DNA of 35,649 bases, from the IMG/VR virus record IMGVR_UViG_3300027870_000007, positions 1 to 35,649 of that record; one strand, given 5' to 3'. Under the pieces are notes generated by a model. The model did not search any database. It had not been told where the DNA came from and saw only the letters and a list, made by a program, of their open reading frames with translations. Shown here in pieces: positions 23,136-35,609 of this stretch (positions are counted from its first letter, which is position 1; each line of letters starts with the position of its first letter). Source of the DNA: a virus. The position numbers and the translations under genes are program-made.

Positions 23136-23393
23136 CTATGCTGCCTCCTTGCGCGCATAGGCCTCGACCAGTTCCGGCCAGATGAGGTGCCAGTCATCGG
23201 GACGCAGGTCGCGACGCGTGACACTGCCGTCAGTAGCACGTTCAATCGCGACGCAGTGAGTCGGGCCTGGTCGCCGCTTGGCATAGCCGTGTTGCCACTG
23301 CCGTATTTGGGCGTCGCTTGGGATGCCTGCGCGAATGCGAAGCTCACCGACAGTGAGCGCACCTGGGCTCGCTAAGTATTCGGACAATTTCAT
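23136..23393 (-). CDS. Cro/YdaS-like helix-turn-helix repressor
   Basis: An 85-residue product from the ATG at 23393 (MKLSEYLASPGALTVGELRI). Residues 1-40 fit the YdaS/Cro-type helix-turn-helix of phage switches (GALTVGELRIRAGIPSDAQI, then RQWQHGYAKRRPGP). The C-terminal half (DLRPDDWHLIWPELVEAY) matches the tail of YdaS-type proteins. It faces the S24 repressor across a 76-base intergenic region with three operator-like palindromes. A TATAGA -10 lies only 11-16 bases upstream and no ribosome binding site is seen, so the message may be nearly leaderless. Confidence 0.8.
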   Translation of the reverse strand: MKLSEYLASPGALTVGELRIRAGIPSDAQIRQWQHGYAKRRPGPTHCVAIERATDGSVTRRDLRPDDWHLIWPELVEAYARKEAA

Positions 23394-23403
23394 GCGACCC
23401 GAA

Positions 23404-23430
23404 TCTATAGCATTTGCTACCGACAATCAA
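23404..23430 (-). promoter_or_regulatory. leftward early promoter of the cro-like gene
   Basis: Minus strand: TTGATT (23430-23425), a 15-base spacer, then TATAGA (23409-23404). The spacer is shorter than ideal. The promoter is covered by the first operator palindrome (23408-23419), so repressor binding would block it directly. Confidence 0.5.
23408..23419. promoter_or_regulatory. operator site 1, TAGCATTTGCTA
   Basis: Palindrome with arms TAGCA and TGCTA around TT. It overlaps the -10 of the leftward early promoter. It matches the two perfect sites at 25570 and 25595 in the outer four bases on each side. Confidence 0.75.
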
Positions 23431-23431
23431 G

Positions 23432-23443
23432 TAGCCAATGCTC
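23432..23443. promoter_or_regulatory. operator site 2, TAGCCAATGCTC (degenerate)
   Basis: Left arm TAGC intact, right arm GCTC instead of GCTA. It lies 24 bases centre-to-centre from site 1 and 15 from site 3. Probably a weak site. Confidence 0.5.
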
Positions 23444-23446
23444 TTG

Positions 23447-23458
23447 TAGCGTCTGCTA
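23447..23458. promoter_or_regulatory. operator site 3, TAGCGTCTGCTA
   Basis: Arms extend to GTAGC and GCTAC (23446-23459) around GTCT. It ends 11 bases before the repressor start codon, so occupancy would block repressor transcription, as in lambda-like autoregulation. Confidence 0.75.
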
Positions 23459-23469
23459 CTGTCAATGGT

Positions 23470-24171
23470 ATGGATGAACAAGCAATTCAGGCATGGCGGC
23501 TGCAGCGGTTGTCAGCGATGGTGGAGCGGGAAGGCGGAAAGGCTCCCGCAGGCCGCAAGCTGGGCTATCGCGATGGCGCGTTTGTCGGTCAGATGCTCCG
23601 AGGGGAGCGGCCCGTCACCGAAAAAACTGTGCTCGCTGCTCACGCGCTCTCGGGGTATGCAGGCTGGTTTGACCATCCGCAGTCCGGCGCTCGCAGCCCG
23701 GTCGCGGTGGTAAACCTCGCACCCGCGCCAGGTCCTGGCGAGTCCGCAGTACACGTACCTCTACTCGCCAACGCGGGGAGCATGGGGCCGGGGACGGACA
23801 TCCAGCATGACGACGTACTCGTGGGACACATCGCCTTATCGGAACAGTGGGTGGCCAGACGTCTGCGCCCTACGAGCATATTGGCCCTACGGTTCATTCA
23901 CGCTTACGGTGACAGCATGAGCCCTACCTTCGAGGACGGTGACGTTCTGCTCGTGGACACGGGCATTCGAGATCCCAAGGACATCGACGGCGTCTATGTG
24001 ATGGCCGCCAACGACCGCGTGTACATCAAGCGGGTGCGCCAACGCCTGGACGGCATCATTGAAATCAGCAGCGACAACGTTACAGTGAAGACCGTTGACG
24101 TGCTCAAAGGCGACCACCGGATCGATATTCTGGGACGCGTCGTTTGGTGCTGGAACGGGCGGAAGCTCTGA
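23470..24171 (+). CDS. CI-type repressor, S24/LexA-like self-cleaving
   Basis: A 233-residue product; the ATG at 23470 is chosen because earlier in-frame starts would run through the operators and the cro-like gene. Residues 10-60 are the DNA-binding domain (AGRKLGYRDGAFVGQMLRGE). Residues 102-103 (Ala-Gly in LANAGSMG) are a good self-cleavage site. Ser149 (YGDSMSP) and Lys187 (VYIKRV) form the S24 catalytic dyad. All parts needed for RecA-stimulated cleavage are present, so the prophage should respond to the host SOS state. No ribosome binding site is visible, so a leaderless message, as for lambda cI, is plausible. Confidence 0.9.
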   Translation: MDEQAIQAWRLQRLSAMVEREGGKAPAGRKLGYRDGAFVGQMLRGERPVTEKTVLAAHALSGYAGWFDHPQSGARSPVAVVNLAPAPGPGESAVHVPLLANAGSMGPGTDIQHDDVLVGHIALSEQWVARRLRPTSILALRFIHAYGDSMSPTFEDGDVLLVDTGIRDPKDIDGVYVMAANDRVYIKRVRQRLDGIIEISSDNVTVKTVDVLKGDHRIDILGRVVWCWNGRKL

Positions 24172-29752: not shown

Positions 29753-30616
29753 ATGACTGAAACCGCAACGGCGGAGGCGCCGGCAGCGTTCGCGCTCACG
29801 CCGCAGGCGACTCCCTCCGCAGCGCTGCCTGCCGTGGCAGCCCAGGCGCTGCGCCAACTGGTGCCCACCTCTCCCGCCGGCCTGATGATGTCCGTGCTGG
29901 CACAGGGCGGGAGCCTGGACCTGTTCGAGCGCATGCTGGATGTGCAGGAGCGCTGGGAGCGCCGCGAGGCCGAGAAGGCTTTCTACGACGGCATGACCCA
30001 GTTCCGGGCGCGGAACATTGTGATCCCCAAGCGCCGGTTGGTGGAGTTCGACAGCCGCGTGGGTCACACCGAATACAAGCACGCGGTCCTGTCGGACGTG
30101 ACGACCCGCATCGGGCCGCCGCTGTCGGAGCTGGGCTTCTCCTGGTCCTGGAAGATGCGCCAGGAAGGCGGCGCCATCACGGTCACCTGCGTGCTGCGCC
30201 ACCGCCAGGGCCACGCGGACGAGGTTTCGATCACGGCCCCGCCGGATCCCAGTGGTGGCAAGAACTCGATTCAGGCAGTCGTGTCGACGACGACCTACTT
30301 GGAACGCCACACGCTCAAGGCCATCACCGGCACGGCCGAGGCGGACGAGGACGACGATGGCAAGGGCGCTCCACCATTCGGCGCCAAGGACCAGGATCTC
30401 AACGCCGACGCGGCGCGCGGCAAGGTGACCGTGCTGGAGAAGTGGTGCCAGGAAGCCCGCGCCACCAAAACCCGCGCCGACCTCACCCGTGTGATGAAAG
30501 CCGGTGTCGCCGTCTTCAAGGCGGCCAACGACCGTGACGGCTACTCCGCCTTCAAGTTCGCCATCGAGAAGCACGGCGCGACCCTCCCCCCTGATGGCCG
30601 GAGCGTTGCGGCATGA
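29753..30616 (+). CDS. erf: ERF-family single-strand annealing protein
   Basis: A 287-residue product from the ATG at 29753. Residues 75-105 (AFYDGMTQFRARN), 110-130 (AVLSDVTTRIGPPLSELGFS) and 168-195 (SGGKNSIQAVVSTTTYLERH, then LKAITG) give the ERF pattern, including the conserved G-x-x-x-x-x-Q and T-Y-x-x-R/H-x-x-L. Residues 1-35 are an Ala/Pro-rich leader. ERF rings anneal complementary single strands during phage recombination. It overlaps the exonuclease gene as ATGA, the usual exonuclease-annealase pair. Confidence 0.9.
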   Translation: MTETATAEAPAAFALTPQATPSAALPAVAAQALRQLVPTSPAGLMMSVLAQGGSLDLFERMLDVQERWERREAEKAFYDGMTQFRARNIVIPKRRLVEFDSRVGHTEYKHAVLSDVTTRIGPPLSELGFSWSWKMRQEGGAITVTCVLRHRQGHADEVSITAPPDPSGGKNSIQAVVSTTTYLERHTLKAITGTAEADEDDDGKGAPPFGAKDQDLNADAARGKVTVLEKWCQEARATKTRADLTRVMKAGVAVFKAANDRDGYSAFKFAIEKHGATLPPDGRSVAA

Positions 30617-31338
30617 GCGACATCCTGTTCCGCTGCTCCAGTCTCGGCCACCTGATGACCGACCCCAAGACCCGGGCCGAAGGCGACCTCTCGACGGGCG
30701 CGCGCACCTATCTGCGCCAGTTGGTCAAGGAGGAACTGTTCGGCGTGGAGTTCGACATCGGCGGCAAGGAAATCGAGAAGGGCATCCGCGTCGAGGAGGA
30801 GTGCATCGCGCTGCTCAACACCGTGCGCGGCCTCACGCTGACCAAGAACACCGAGCGCCGGACCAACGGCCTGATCACCGGCGAGTGCGACCTGTTCGAT
30901 GCACGGCCCCGCCGCGGACACGACATCAAGGCGCCGTGGTCGATCAAAACCTTCCCCGGCTGGCTGGTGGACTGCGTGACACCCCTCTACGACTGGCAGA
31001 TGCGCGGCTACATGGCCCTGTGGGATGCCGACGAGTGGGAAGTGAACTACGTGCTGGTGAACACACCCGAGGACCTGCGCCGCGGCGAGCCCCTCGACAT
31101 GCACGTGGTCGACCACATCCCGCGCGAGCACCGCCTGACCACCTGGCTCATCGAACGCGACTTCCAGAAGGAAGCCCTGATCCGCGAACGCGTCGAGGCC
31201 GCCCGTTGGTACTACGGCCAGCTCATCCGCGAGTTCGACGAGGGGCACCGCATGAATGCGGTCATCGACGTGCTCGCCCGCGAAGTCCAACCAACCCCAT
31301 CGCAGCGCCCTCTGGTGCAGCTGCCGAGTCTTTTTTAA
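30613..31338 (+). CDS. YqaJ/RecB-like exonuclease
   Basis: A 241-residue product from the ATG at 30613. Residues 61-63 (Glu), 88-93 (ITGECD), 102-110 (GHDIKAPWS with Asp104-x-Lys106) and 129-133 (QMRGY) reproduce the PD-(D/E)xK core with its late Gln/Tyr motif, as in lambda exonuclease and YqaJ proteins. It digests one strand from duplex ends to feed the ERF annealase encoded just before it. All catalytic residues appear intact. Confidence 0.85.
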   Translation: MSDILFRCSSLGHLMTDPKTRAEGDLSTGARTYLRQLVKEELFGVEFDIGGKEIEKGIRVEEECIALLNTVRGLTLTKNTERRTNGLITGECDLFDARPRRGHDIKAPWSIKTFPGWLVDCVTPLYDWQMRGYMALWDADEWEVNYVLVNTPEDLRRGEPLDMHVVDHIPREHRLTTWLIERDFQKEALIRERVEAARWYYGQLIREFDEGHRMNAVIDVLAREVQPTPSQRPLVQLPSLF

Positions 31339-33383: not shown

Positions 33384-33676
33384 GCGCCGCCGCCAAGAAG
33401 CAACCGGGCATTCCCATGGCCCCGGTGAAGAGCGCGCAGCTCGGGGCGATCGGCTACGACCCAGAGCGCCAGGTGCTGGCAGTGCGGTTCGCGCGCGGCG
33501 CCACGGTCTACCACTACGACGGGGTCAAGCCGGAGCTGCACGCCGAGTTCATGGCCGCCAAGTCCATGGGCGTCTTCTTCGCCCAGCGCATCAAGGGAAT
33601 GCCCTTTACGAAGTTCGAGACGGCTCCCGAGGTTGAGCGCCTGCCAGCTGACGACACCGAGGGCGGCGCCCTGTAG
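33380..33676 (+). CDS. KTSC-domain protein
   Basis: A 98-residue product from the ATG at 33380, overlapping the upstream stop. Residues 22-60 (IGYDPERQVLAVRFARGATV, YHYDGVKPELHAEFMAAKSM) and 66-75 (FFAQRIKGMP) form the KTSC fold: a strand pair followed by the V-Y-x-Y-x-x-V motif and two helices. KTSC domains occur alone or next to nucleic-acid enzymes. Possibly binds RNA or helps the recombination set. The last 20 residues are acidic. Confidence 0.8.
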   Translation: MSAAAKKQPGIPMAPVKSAQLGAIGYDPERQVLAVRFARGATVYHYDGVKPELHAEFMAAKSMGVFFAQRIKGMPFTKFETAPEVERLPADDTEGGAL

Positions 33677-33727: not shown

Positions 33728-34930
33728 ATGTTTCAAAACCTCATCATCTACCGCATCGCCGCAGGCTGGCAGTCCGAACTGCAGGCCGTCGAGGAGGCCC
33801 TGGCCAAGGCGCCTTTCATGGAGTGCGGCACCACGCAGGAGAAGTCCCTGGGCTGGGTGCCACCGCGCGGCGAGGCTCACGGCCCCCTGGCCGAATCCGT
33901 CGCCGGCCAGTGGATCCTGCGCTTCATGGTCGAGTCCAAGACGTTGCCCGCCAGCGCACTGGCCCGCAAGGTGAAGGAGAAGGCCGACCGCATCGAGAAG
34001 GAAACGGGCCGCAAGCCTGGGCGCAAGGAGACCAAGGAGCTCAAGGACGAGGCCAAGCTCGACCTGCTGCCCATGGCGTTCACTAAACAGGGCTCCATGT
34101 GGGTGTGGATCGACACAGCGTCGCGCCTGCTGGTGCTCGATACGTCCAGCCAGGGCCGCGCGGACGAGGTGGTCACGCTGCTGGTCGAGTCGCTGCCGGG
34201 CCTGTCGGTGTCGCTGATCAACACCCAGACTAGCCCGCAGGCCGCAATGGCCCACTGGCTCAAAGAGCAAGAACCGCCCACAGGCTTCACGGTGGACCGG
34301 GAATGCGAACTGAAGAGCGCCTGCGAGGAGAAGTCCCGGGTGGTCTACGGCCGGCATCCGCTGGACATCGAAGAGGTGCAGGCCCACATCGACGCCGGCA
34401 AGCTGCCCACCAAGCTTGCGCTGACCTGGGATGACCGGGTGTCGTTCCTGCTGACCGAAAGCCTGCAGGTCAAGAAGCTCGCGTTCCTGGACACGGTGCT
34501 CGAAGGAACGAAGGCCGACGAGGGCGGCTTTGACACCGATGTCGCGATCGCGACGGGAGAGCTGGTCAAGTTGATTCCGGACCTGATCGCAGCGCTAGGT
34601 GGCGAGGAGCGCCAGAACTTTGGTGAGGCATTCGCGGATGCAGTCGCGGCCGAATTCAAGCGAACTCTTCCCAGCGGCATTGATCGTGTGGAGATTCGGG
34701 CAGAGGGCACCACCGTTGTAGTGGCGCGGCCCATAGGGGACGAGCCCGATCCTCTATATGACCAAGCGGTCGACGCGGTGCGCAAGCACAACCGAGCCAG
34801 CATTTCCCTTGTGCAACGGATTCTCCGCATTGGCTACAACCGCGCCGCTCGGCTGTTGGAGGACATGGAGAAGGCCGGTATCGTCAGCAAGATGGCCGGC
34901 AACGGAGCACGCGATGTCTTGACGCCGTGA
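33728..34930 (+). CDS. rdgC: RdgC fused to an FtsK-gamma winged helix
   Basis: A 400-residue product from the ATG at 33728. Residues 1-310 are RdgC-like: [10 protein letters not shown] start, GWVPPRGE at 44-51, a basic helix ([20 protein letters not shown]), [20 protein letters not shown] near 122-141, and [13 protein letters not shown] near 195. RdgC forms a ring that coats duplex DNA and limits RecA. Residues 341-400 ([51 protein letters not shown]) are a full FtsK-gamma domain, the module that reads polarity sequences. The two parts are in one frame with no stop or shift. Cellular RdgC is about 300 residues and lacks this end. Confidence 0.85.
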
Positions 34931-34943
34931 GGCATCGCTCCTG

Positions 34944-35609
34944 CTATGGTGCCCTCTTGTCAAATGGCGCAGTGGAGAAGCCGCGCGAATGCAAGTAGTC
35001 ATTGAGGCCGGTATTTGCGTGCTCCAGCGCGGCGAATGCAGAGGCCATCGAAGTTAGAGTTTGCTGCCAAAAGGCGGATAGTGATCGCCCCGCGGTATCA
35101 GCGCCTTTGGTCATATCTAAAAGGCGCGAGCACTCAGCAAAGATGGAATATGCCTGGTTCAGGCTGTGGCTTATGCCCTTGCCGGCGGGTAGCAGTGCGA
35201 CTAACTTTTCATCGTCGATCATGAAACTTTTCAGATGGGCGACGAACCAGTCCACCTCTTCGGCGGTCAGGGGTGTTTCACATGCATTGCGCAATAGATC
35301 CAGGGTGGGATTGGTGCTTTGCAACAGAAGCCCGACGCTGTGCCGAACACGAAGCGCTACATGATCGGCGAGTACTAACTCCCGCTCTCGAACGCGTTGA
35401 GTTTCCAGGTAGTGAGCAATGAAAGCGACGAGGAACGCCGTGCCAATAGCCACGATACTGAAAATCGCCTGCATCCACCCAGACCACTCTCCCTTGGTCA
35501 TACACACGGTCCACCATCGATCCTGGTTGGCTAGAAAGCAGTACTCCGCCGCAGGCTTTGCCGCCTCCACAGCTCGCGCCAAGGCCTCAGCCAACTGATT
35601 CGCATCCAT
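34944..35609 (-). CDS. membrane protein, convergent with rdgC
   Basis: A 221-residue product from the ATG at 35609, with GGAGGG about five bases upstream. Residues 44-67 (GWMQAIFSIVAIGTAFLVAF) form one membrane segment; the rest is helical and cytoplasmic (TQRVRERELVLADHVALRVR and onward). It is read against its neighbour, with only 13 bases between the two stops, and is less GC-rich. No family recognised; a superinfection-exclusion or host-interaction role is a guess. Its promoter would lie outside the window. Confidence 0.7.
   Translation of the reverse strand: MDANQLAEALARAVEAAKPAAEYCFLANQDRWWTVCMTKGEWSGWMQAIFSIVAIGTAFLVAFIAHYLETQRVRERELVLADHVALRVRHSVGLLLQSTNPTLDLLRNACETPLTAEEVDWFVAHLKSFMIDDEKLVALLPAGKGISHSLNQAYSIFAECSRLLDMTKGADTAGRSLSAFWQQTLTSMASAFAALEHANTGLNDYLHSRGFSTAPFDKRAP

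Follow-up and report, generated by a model that had tools for sequence, protein, structure and literature searches.

The locus described here raises the question of whether a phage RdgC protein carries at its C-terminus the gamma domain of FtsK, and what such a domain could do there. E. coli RdgC is reported to encircle double-stranded DNA and to oppose RecA. The original prediction, made for the 35,649-base stretch of a virus record that was analysed as a whole (the window), held that an RdgC was fused to FtsK-gamma and that the product would be a RecA inhibitor aimed at particular DNA sites, or one tying phage recombination to the handling of chromosome dimers near dif.

Domains and genetic context of the RdgC-gamma protein

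The frame at 33728-34930 on the plus strand encodes 400 residues without a break, and it was divided as follows.

33728..34930, + strand: rdgC-gamma gene, 400 aa, single frame
33728..34606, + strand: RdgC domain, residues 1-293 (Pfam; fold match to 2owl_A, TM 0.92)
34607..34741, + strand: linker, residues 294-338 (predicted helix 298-313, predicted strands 322-326 and 329-333)
34742..34924, + strand: FtsK-gamma winged helix, residues 339-399 (Pfam, PDB phmmer, AlphaFold2, Foldseek)
34817..34819, + strand: codon R364, equivalent to FtsK R1289, the XerD contact (alignments; role from PMC5052618)
34838..34870, + strand: codons N371, R375, E378 and E381, equivalent to E. coli FtsK N1296, R1300, E1303 and E1306 (alignments; roles from PMC2680272 and PMC2533119)

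Both profiles matched far above their cut-offs: the Pfam RdgC family (PF04381) was found on residues 2-293 with E=1e-103 and 347 bits (cut-off 25), the NCBIfam model NF001463 (RdgC) gave 459 bits against 324, and FtsK_gamma (PF09397) was located on residues 339-399 with E=6.6e-25 and 87.1 bits against 30.6. The latter match spanned positions 2-62 of the 63 in the profile, that is end to end, in agreement with what had been predicted for the last 60 residues. Searches of the PDB with phmmer placed RdgC (2owl/2owy) on residues 2-295 and FtsK gamma (2ve8/2j5o) on residues 337-400, and Pfam recognized only RdgC and FtsK_gamma in the window protein, the FtsK motor domains being absent. The fusion was confirmed by the presence of both Pfam domains in one uninterrupted frame; a frame break or an assembly join between the two parts was not found, and the intact two-domain protein occurs in unrelated named phages as well.

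Structure prediction with AlphaFold2 on a 42-row alignment (A3, modelled as a monomer) gave a mean pLDDT of 91.7 and two confident folds; the ten-residue blocks from residue 341 onward averaged 89-97, and residues 328-337 of the linker fell under 50. In Foldseek the first fold resembled E. coli RdgC (2owl_A, TM 0.92, E=1.5e-30), and the second, C-terminal one matched the KOPS-bound gamma of FtsK (2ve9) with 61-62% identity and an rmsd of 0.9-1.2 A. By eye, the linker (34616-34726) resembles those of the loci L037, L095 and L104, and RdgCs with such linkers occur both with and without gamma.

The residues by which E. coli FtsK reads KOPS were described as N1296, R1300 and E1303 (PMC2533119) and as R1300, E1303 and E1306 (PMC2680272), R1300A weakening the recognition (PMC2680272). 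All four were kept in the window gamma according to the alignments (N371, R375, E378 and E381). In the peptide equivalent to FtsK 1289-1297, which suffices for XerD activation and in which R1289 is the main XerD contact (PMC5052618), R364 was kept and two inner positions differed. Invariance was judged in a set of 13 sequences (A1) that had been assembled irrespective of the KOPS-reading residues, and there Q363, R364, I368 and N371 did not vary; the regular expression behind the 61 distinct viral gammas demands QR and N, and the pattern of the second scan QR and IGYN, so that invariance in that larger set is circular. Among these 61 gammas the R1300 position was occupied by R in 41, S in 10, A in 7, H in 2 and W in 1 (replaced in 20/61), the E1303 position by E in 53, D in 6, K in 1 and N in 1, and the E1306 position by E in 54 and Q in 7. 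A gamma without R1300 may still be functional, since the host FtsK gammas of two Comamonas genomes (L217, L223) have Asn at this position (NRSANLLEQ). Since a complete RdgC and a full gamma with conserved KOPS-reading residues form one protein, a KOPS-guided RdgC is plausible, and to this extent the interpretation put forward originally could be retained; its appeal to KOPS counts could not, as described below.

The surroundings of the gene were examined with Pfam and PHROGs, and the following features were located.

23323..24171, + strand: CI-like repressor (PHROGs)
29753..30616, + strand: Erf-like single-strand annealing protein, upstream of rdgC-gamma (PHROG 155)
30613..31338, + strand: phage exonuclease, upstream of rdgC-gamma (PHROG 5715)
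33470..33676, + strand: KTSC-domain region, directly 5' of rdgC-gamma (Pfam; tested part 33470-33673)

Further PHROG matches in the window comprised a portal, a terminase, a major head protein, a head closure protein and an O-like replication protein, and these matches together with the CI-like repressor suggest that the record belongs to a temperate tailed phage. The Erf and exonuclease genes lie upstream of rdgC-gamma on its own strand; the KTSC region immediately precedes the gene, which is followed by a frame on the minus strand (34944-35609) with no Pfam or PHROG match and a lower GC3 of 0.62. In PA8 the RdgC-gamma gene stands among DNA-metabolism genes, with ssb and a PolC-type gene; in KLER1-1 it is near exonuclease VIII and a ssDNA-binding protein, and in K279 near a ssDNA-binding protein.

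Distribution, origin and C-terminal tails

A tblastn search with the whole protein matched 211 phage records, and in 54 the match extended over 80% or more of the query length. Both domains were identified by Pfam in six named records (PA8, SHOU24, KLER1-1, D80, K279 and a Chromobacterium element), that is in Pseudomonas, Vibrio and Pararheinheimera phages and in a Chromobacterium phage-plasmid, so named because its record contains terminase, capsid and TrfA genes. In the latter record (NZ_CP029555.1; L421, L422) the capsid block is present twice with the same protein accessions, which is either a duplication or an assembly fault. The same graft in unrelated phages means that the fusion is real, and it looks useful. 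RdgC-gamma is a real, recurrent and apparently undescribed architecture composed of two known parts, with a function that is predicted; no account of an RdgC-FtsK gamma fusion was found in the literature covered, which lies mostly outside the subscription papers.

The viral scans and selected records yielded 107 distinct viral RdgCs, of which 59 had gamma, 2 gamma and a terminal PF (the PF tip), 12 the PF tip only and 34 neither; the 61 gamma-bearing proteins in 107 are not a frequency, as one of the patterns of the second viral scan was a gamma motif. These counts exclude loci L044 and L048-L050, whose match begins elsewhere than at residue 1 of RdgC, as well as proteins shorter than 290 aa or truncated by the contig end. 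Many phage RdgCs lack gamma. Among the matches listed for 100 genomes of the Acidovorax family no fusion was seen: the RdgC matches stopped by residue 326, and the gamma-only matches were in frames of at least 767 residues, except four of 67-313. A scan of named genomes (best 80 of 102 relatives) gave one fused copy (L165), the RdgC region of which is identical to that of a viral contig (L002). One Acidovorax genome (G001) also has a 75-residue stand-alone gamma-like frame (L224, G001:C4:28693-28845).

The RdgC part of the window protein reached 88% identity with the RdgC of Acidovorax genomes and 91% with that of the phage contig L006, a syntenic sister without gamma which shares Erf (95%), exonuclease (90%) and KTSC (94%; protein identities). 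The closest relatives of the gamma were found on other phage RdgCs (78% identity, L007), the gamma of the host (Acidovorax) FtsK being less similar (68%). DNA homology between the window and L006 stops at 34607, immediately behind codon 293 and at the domain boundary, where a GC3 of 0.87 gives way to one of 0.70 (Fisher p=1.4e-4), and the contig ends soon after; these features would be expected if the gamma were a chance similarity or the record an assembly chimera joined at this point. Against such an origin stand the in-frame gamma match with its E=6.6e-25, the Pfam-confirmed fusion in unrelated phages and the purifying selection on gamma in relatives, so its probability is very close to nil, and as the source of the architecture it was refuted by the in-frame gamma and the unrelated carriers. 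Position 34607 is read as a probable biological domain junction, since the same two-domain protein is intact in PA8, SHOU24, KLER1-1, K279 and D80.

On a tree of the RdgC domain (139 rows for 238 proteins; a quick tree, where stars count for less with long rows) the distribution of gamma takes 17 changes to explain, of which starred branches force 10, against a mean of 40.2 after shuffling; its deep branches are long and unsure in placement, and the changes cannot separate gain from loss. The loci L019 and L039 are 96% identical over the first 840 bases and have similar downstream DNA; in L019 gamma sits between the linker and the terminal peptide (tip), whereas L039 is without it, i.e. a module indel. 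These data indicate that the module is repeatedly gained or lost. The gamma of relatives had a median dN/dS of 0.21 (range 0.06-0.46; 19 usable of 21 pairs, which were chosen by us and are not independent, two giving no usable gamma ratio), a value indicating purifying selection; the class named linker was left aside in this calculation, because it includes part of RdgC. The RdgC of Acidovorax sp. sif1233 (L170:6001-6960) ends with NPTGSRDVLA, which resembles the last residues of gamma and may be what a deletion left of a fused domain.

The tails of host RdgCs gave a further clue. In the genome scan (best 80 of 102 relatives; L137-L216, e.g. L137:6001-7011), 71 of 75 distinct complete Comamonadaceae RdgCs end with PF, and the residues before it are mostly acidic, for example DTDPESAPF or DDDAPF. 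SSB of such genomes (nine loci, eight genomes) ends exactly with GFDDMDDDIPF in 8/9 cases, one frame running past. In the background, defined as open stretches 250 or more residues long in all six frames rather than gene calls in 400 + 400 kb from two such genomes, one of 966 stretches ended with PF and none was acidic; class-wide the PF tip was rare, with 2/30 loci, one being Acidovorax itself (12 further matches stand outside this count). The tip of Comamonadaceae RdgC is SSB-like and may bind SSB partners; RdgC, SSB and a 'C-terminal tail' are mentioned together in one paper, which deals with phage Orf proteins. Phage RdgCs lack the tip, keep it, have gamma instead of it or, in two cases, have gamma before it, and in some lineages gamma stands where the host RdgC has the SSB-like tip. 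From the comparison of the host tip with these four kinds of phage tails we read the RdgC tail as a putative swappable targeting module.

KOPS and dif-like sites, and the possible roles of gamma

The three KOPS sites named originally (9641, 24912 and, in reverse form, 11888) were an incomplete count: the window contains 13 GGGNAGGG, 2 on the plus and 11 on the minus strand. Shuffled windows had 7.2 on average and 4/100 reached 13, a number reached by 0/41 permuted control motifs in the window. The density was 2.21 per 10 kb in 13 gamma-plus loci (226 kb) and 1.73 in 32 gamma-minus loci (549 kb), which is no difference (Mann-Whitney p=0.32; 13 vs 32 loci), and the plus:minus counts, 6:44 and 18:77 respectively, were biased to the same strand. 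Given the equal density and the same strand bias, KOPS content is unrelated to gamma in these loci, and the counts lend no support to the predicted site-directed function; as evidence, KOPS was rejected against the 41 permuted motifs and the 32 gamma-minus loci. The motif is strongly one-sided relative to rdgC with or without gamma (121 minus, 24 plus in 45 loci, the window and L002-L047), a strand bias that ranks first of 42 motifs (GGGNAGGG and its permutations) in these 45 phage loci. In PA8 (L419, L420) the ratio was 1 plus to 10 minus.

In 400 kb sampled from a Comamonas genome GGGNAGGG was found 47 times on the leading and 6 times on the lagging strand (rank 3 of 42, two of the 41 permuted motifs being more polarised), and in a 400 kb sample of an Acidovorax contig the ratio was 62:31 (rank 13 of 42); these ranks imply that KOPS polarity partly follows G skew. 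The polarity in the sampled Comamonas genome coexists with Asn at the R1300 position of FtsK. Per Mb there were 365 KOPS in the window, 187 in the 45 phage loci, 132.5 in Comamonas and 232.5 in Acidovorax; being no sparser on phage than on host DNA, KOPS would not let gamma single out the latter, and targeting of host DNA only was rejected for this reason.

The search for dif used a consensus with 19 scored positions, which finds E. coli dif exactly. The 62 gamma-plus loci (833 kb) contained three matches with at most 4/19 mismatches; neither the 49 viral loci without gamma (752 kb) nor the 106 loci from genomes (1.03 Mb) contained any, and for these counts twenty loci that repeated contigs already present were listed for dropping. 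Resampling the gamma-plus set five times gave 0, 0, 0, 1 and 0 matches. The three sites are:

L054:11719-11746: dif-like match in SHOU24, 3/19 mismatched, between annotated genes
L093:8262-8289: dif-like match in L093, 3/19 mismatched
L053:7837-7864: dif-like match in KLER1-1, 4/19 mismatched, inside an annotated methyltransferase gene

The best match in the window, a partial contig, and in the gamma-plus PA8 was mismatched at 7/19 positions. No convincing site was seen with the same consensus in the Comamonadaceae genomes G001-G007 or in G114; as the host dif was not located this way, its absence from beta-proteobacterial phages says little.

We favour, tentatively and with confidence that stays short of even, the explanation that gamma is an address tag which places the phage RdgC ring at KOPS-like double-stranded DNA. 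RdgC-gamma dimers would encircle the duplex and oppose RecA, as reported for E. coli RdgC, the two gammas of a dimer might raise the loading or residence of the ring at KOPS-type octamers, and RdgC would thereby be put at defined sites instead of anywhere. For this speaks that a complete RdgC and a complete gamma with KOPS residues are joined in one polypeptide by a partly disordered linker. The retention of those residues, the purifying selection, the recurrence, the repeated gain or loss and the L019/L039 indel point in the same direction, as do the polarity of GGGNAGGG in Comamonas and the presence of gamma on NA37, GapR and, weakly, a beta-clamp-like protein. Against it are the lack of a difference in KOPS enrichment or polarity between gamma-plus and gamma-minus phages, the ranks of 3 and 13 of 42 with their partial dependence on G skew, the replacement of R1300 in 20/61 distinct viral gammas, the many phage RdgCs that lack gamma, and the stoichiometry, since three gammas bind each KOPS in FtsK (PMC5052618) and an RdgC ring is a dimer. 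The R1300 replacements, the missing enrichment and the frequent gain or loss of the module would equally suit a generic extra winged helix that raises the affinity of RdgC for double-stranded DNA or its ring loading, the octamer specificity being incidental; this is somewhat unlikely, because E1303 and E1306 are mostly kept (E in 53/61 and 54/61), N1296 is invariant in A1, and a generic domain need not be gamma time after time.

The other main rival, which we judge distinctly improbable, is that gamma lets RdgC touch and activate the host XerD, so that the phage could drive or time XerCD recombination, for dimer resolution or integration, in place of FtsK. It is consistent with the retention of R1289 and most of the XerD-activating 1289-1297 peptide, with the activity of XerC- or XerD-gamma fusions in the absence of the FtsK motor (PMC5052618), with the ability of the KOPS-defective R1300A to support XerCD-dif recombination (PMC2680272) and with one gamma carrier being a phage-plasmid. 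The peptide is weak evidence for Xer activation, as the same surface contacts DNA (PMC5052618), which would explain its conservation too. The few dif-like matches keep this rival alive and may favour it a little, but they are imperfect, that of KLER1-1 is within a gene, the window and PA8 have no better than the 7/19 mismatched site, the Comamonadaceae host dif was not found in the genomes scanned, and two carriers, CF418P1 and the Chromobacterium element, have their own integrase. Gamma might also be a decoy on KOPS or XerD that disturbs the host FtsK and delays segregation or division during infection; its 68% identity to the Acidovorax FtsK gamma with the same reading residues and the gamma proteins without RdgC in many phage contigs would fit, but the growth rate of E. 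coli is normal when its FtsK is blind to KOPS (PMC2680272), and the fusion to RdgC and its place beside recombination genes would be left unexplained, hence we give this little credence. On balance address-tagging is favoured, with generic affinity and Xer activation as its main rivals.

Gamma on other proteins and comparison with known systems

GapR and the beta clamp encircle DNA. Gamma was found fused to further nucleoid or DNA-binding proteins, namely to NA37 (L361:1445-2686, E=1.1e-94 and 9.9e-24) and, as two stretches, to GapR in the Rhodobacter phage RcBaka (L289:2986-4308). In the Gordonia phage Meyran (L286:2161-3192) it accompanies a sub-threshold beta-clamp domain (E=3.9e-5) in a protein annotated as 'sliding clamp beta', but assigned to the RusA-like PHROG 12598. 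A viral scan with the GapR-gamma protein gave no match and one with the clamp-gamma protein a single locus. Gamma proteins without RdgC are present in many phage contigs, and those of phrog_6576 have gamma in mid position; at 65 such non-RdgC loci (L295-L374, mostly phrog_6576-like and many closely related) a RecT homologue lies within 2.5 kb in 36/65. An SMC-like homologue is within about 2.5 kb in 56 of the same 65.

A broader proposal, and an unlikely one in our estimate, is that gamma would be a transferable loading tag on phage proteins that encircle or coat DNA (repeatedly RdgC, and also NA37, GapR and the beta-clamp-like protein), loaded and perhaps oriented by KOPS; in replacing an SSB-tip-like peptide it would re-address a RecA antagonist from the SSB network to polarised double-stranded DNA sites. 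The fusion itself suggests that gamma can act as a portable loading module apart from FtsK, and the SSB-like tip in Comamonadaceae genomes suggests the C-terminus of RdgC as a site of targeting. Closely similar phage RdgCs with and without the site-reading domain constitute a natural set in which it can be asked whether addressing the ring shifts the restraint of RecA.

The nearest prior art consists of a small terminase that bears gamma and of polyvalent proteins with the FtsK winged helix. The small terminase of the Bacillus phages Sam46 and Sam112 belongs to another family and has gamma with conserved DNA-binding residues, but there the domain is N-terminal and belongs to a packaging protein, the available part of the article does not mention RdgC, and the authors called the role of phage gamma genes unknown (PMC8190038). 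In the 'polyvalent proteins' of phages and plasmids the FtsK winged helix is an infrequent accessory DNA-binding domain, again with no RdgC in the portion accessible (PMC5512222). The phrog_6576 proteins of Pseudomonas phages (AUS531phi) likewise place a gamma protein beside a phage recombinase; unlike the window protein, they have no RdgC domain. RdgC has been described as a sequence-blind DNA ring, and lambda RexA, a phage protein with an RdgC-like fold, binds DNA non-specifically; its roles are in exclusion and the lysis-lysogeny decision, and the part of the source at hand describes no gamma in it (PMC11077077). The whole RdgC fold is shared with E. coli 2owl and with 2owy (TM 0.89-0.92 normalised by chain), the chains of which have 303 and 306 residues and, unlike the window protein, no gamma. 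The winged helix is the same as that of FtsK gamma bound to KOPS (2ve9), with the reading residues retained, but whereas FtsK carries gamma on a hexameric motor, the window protein carries it on RdgC, without a translocase motor.
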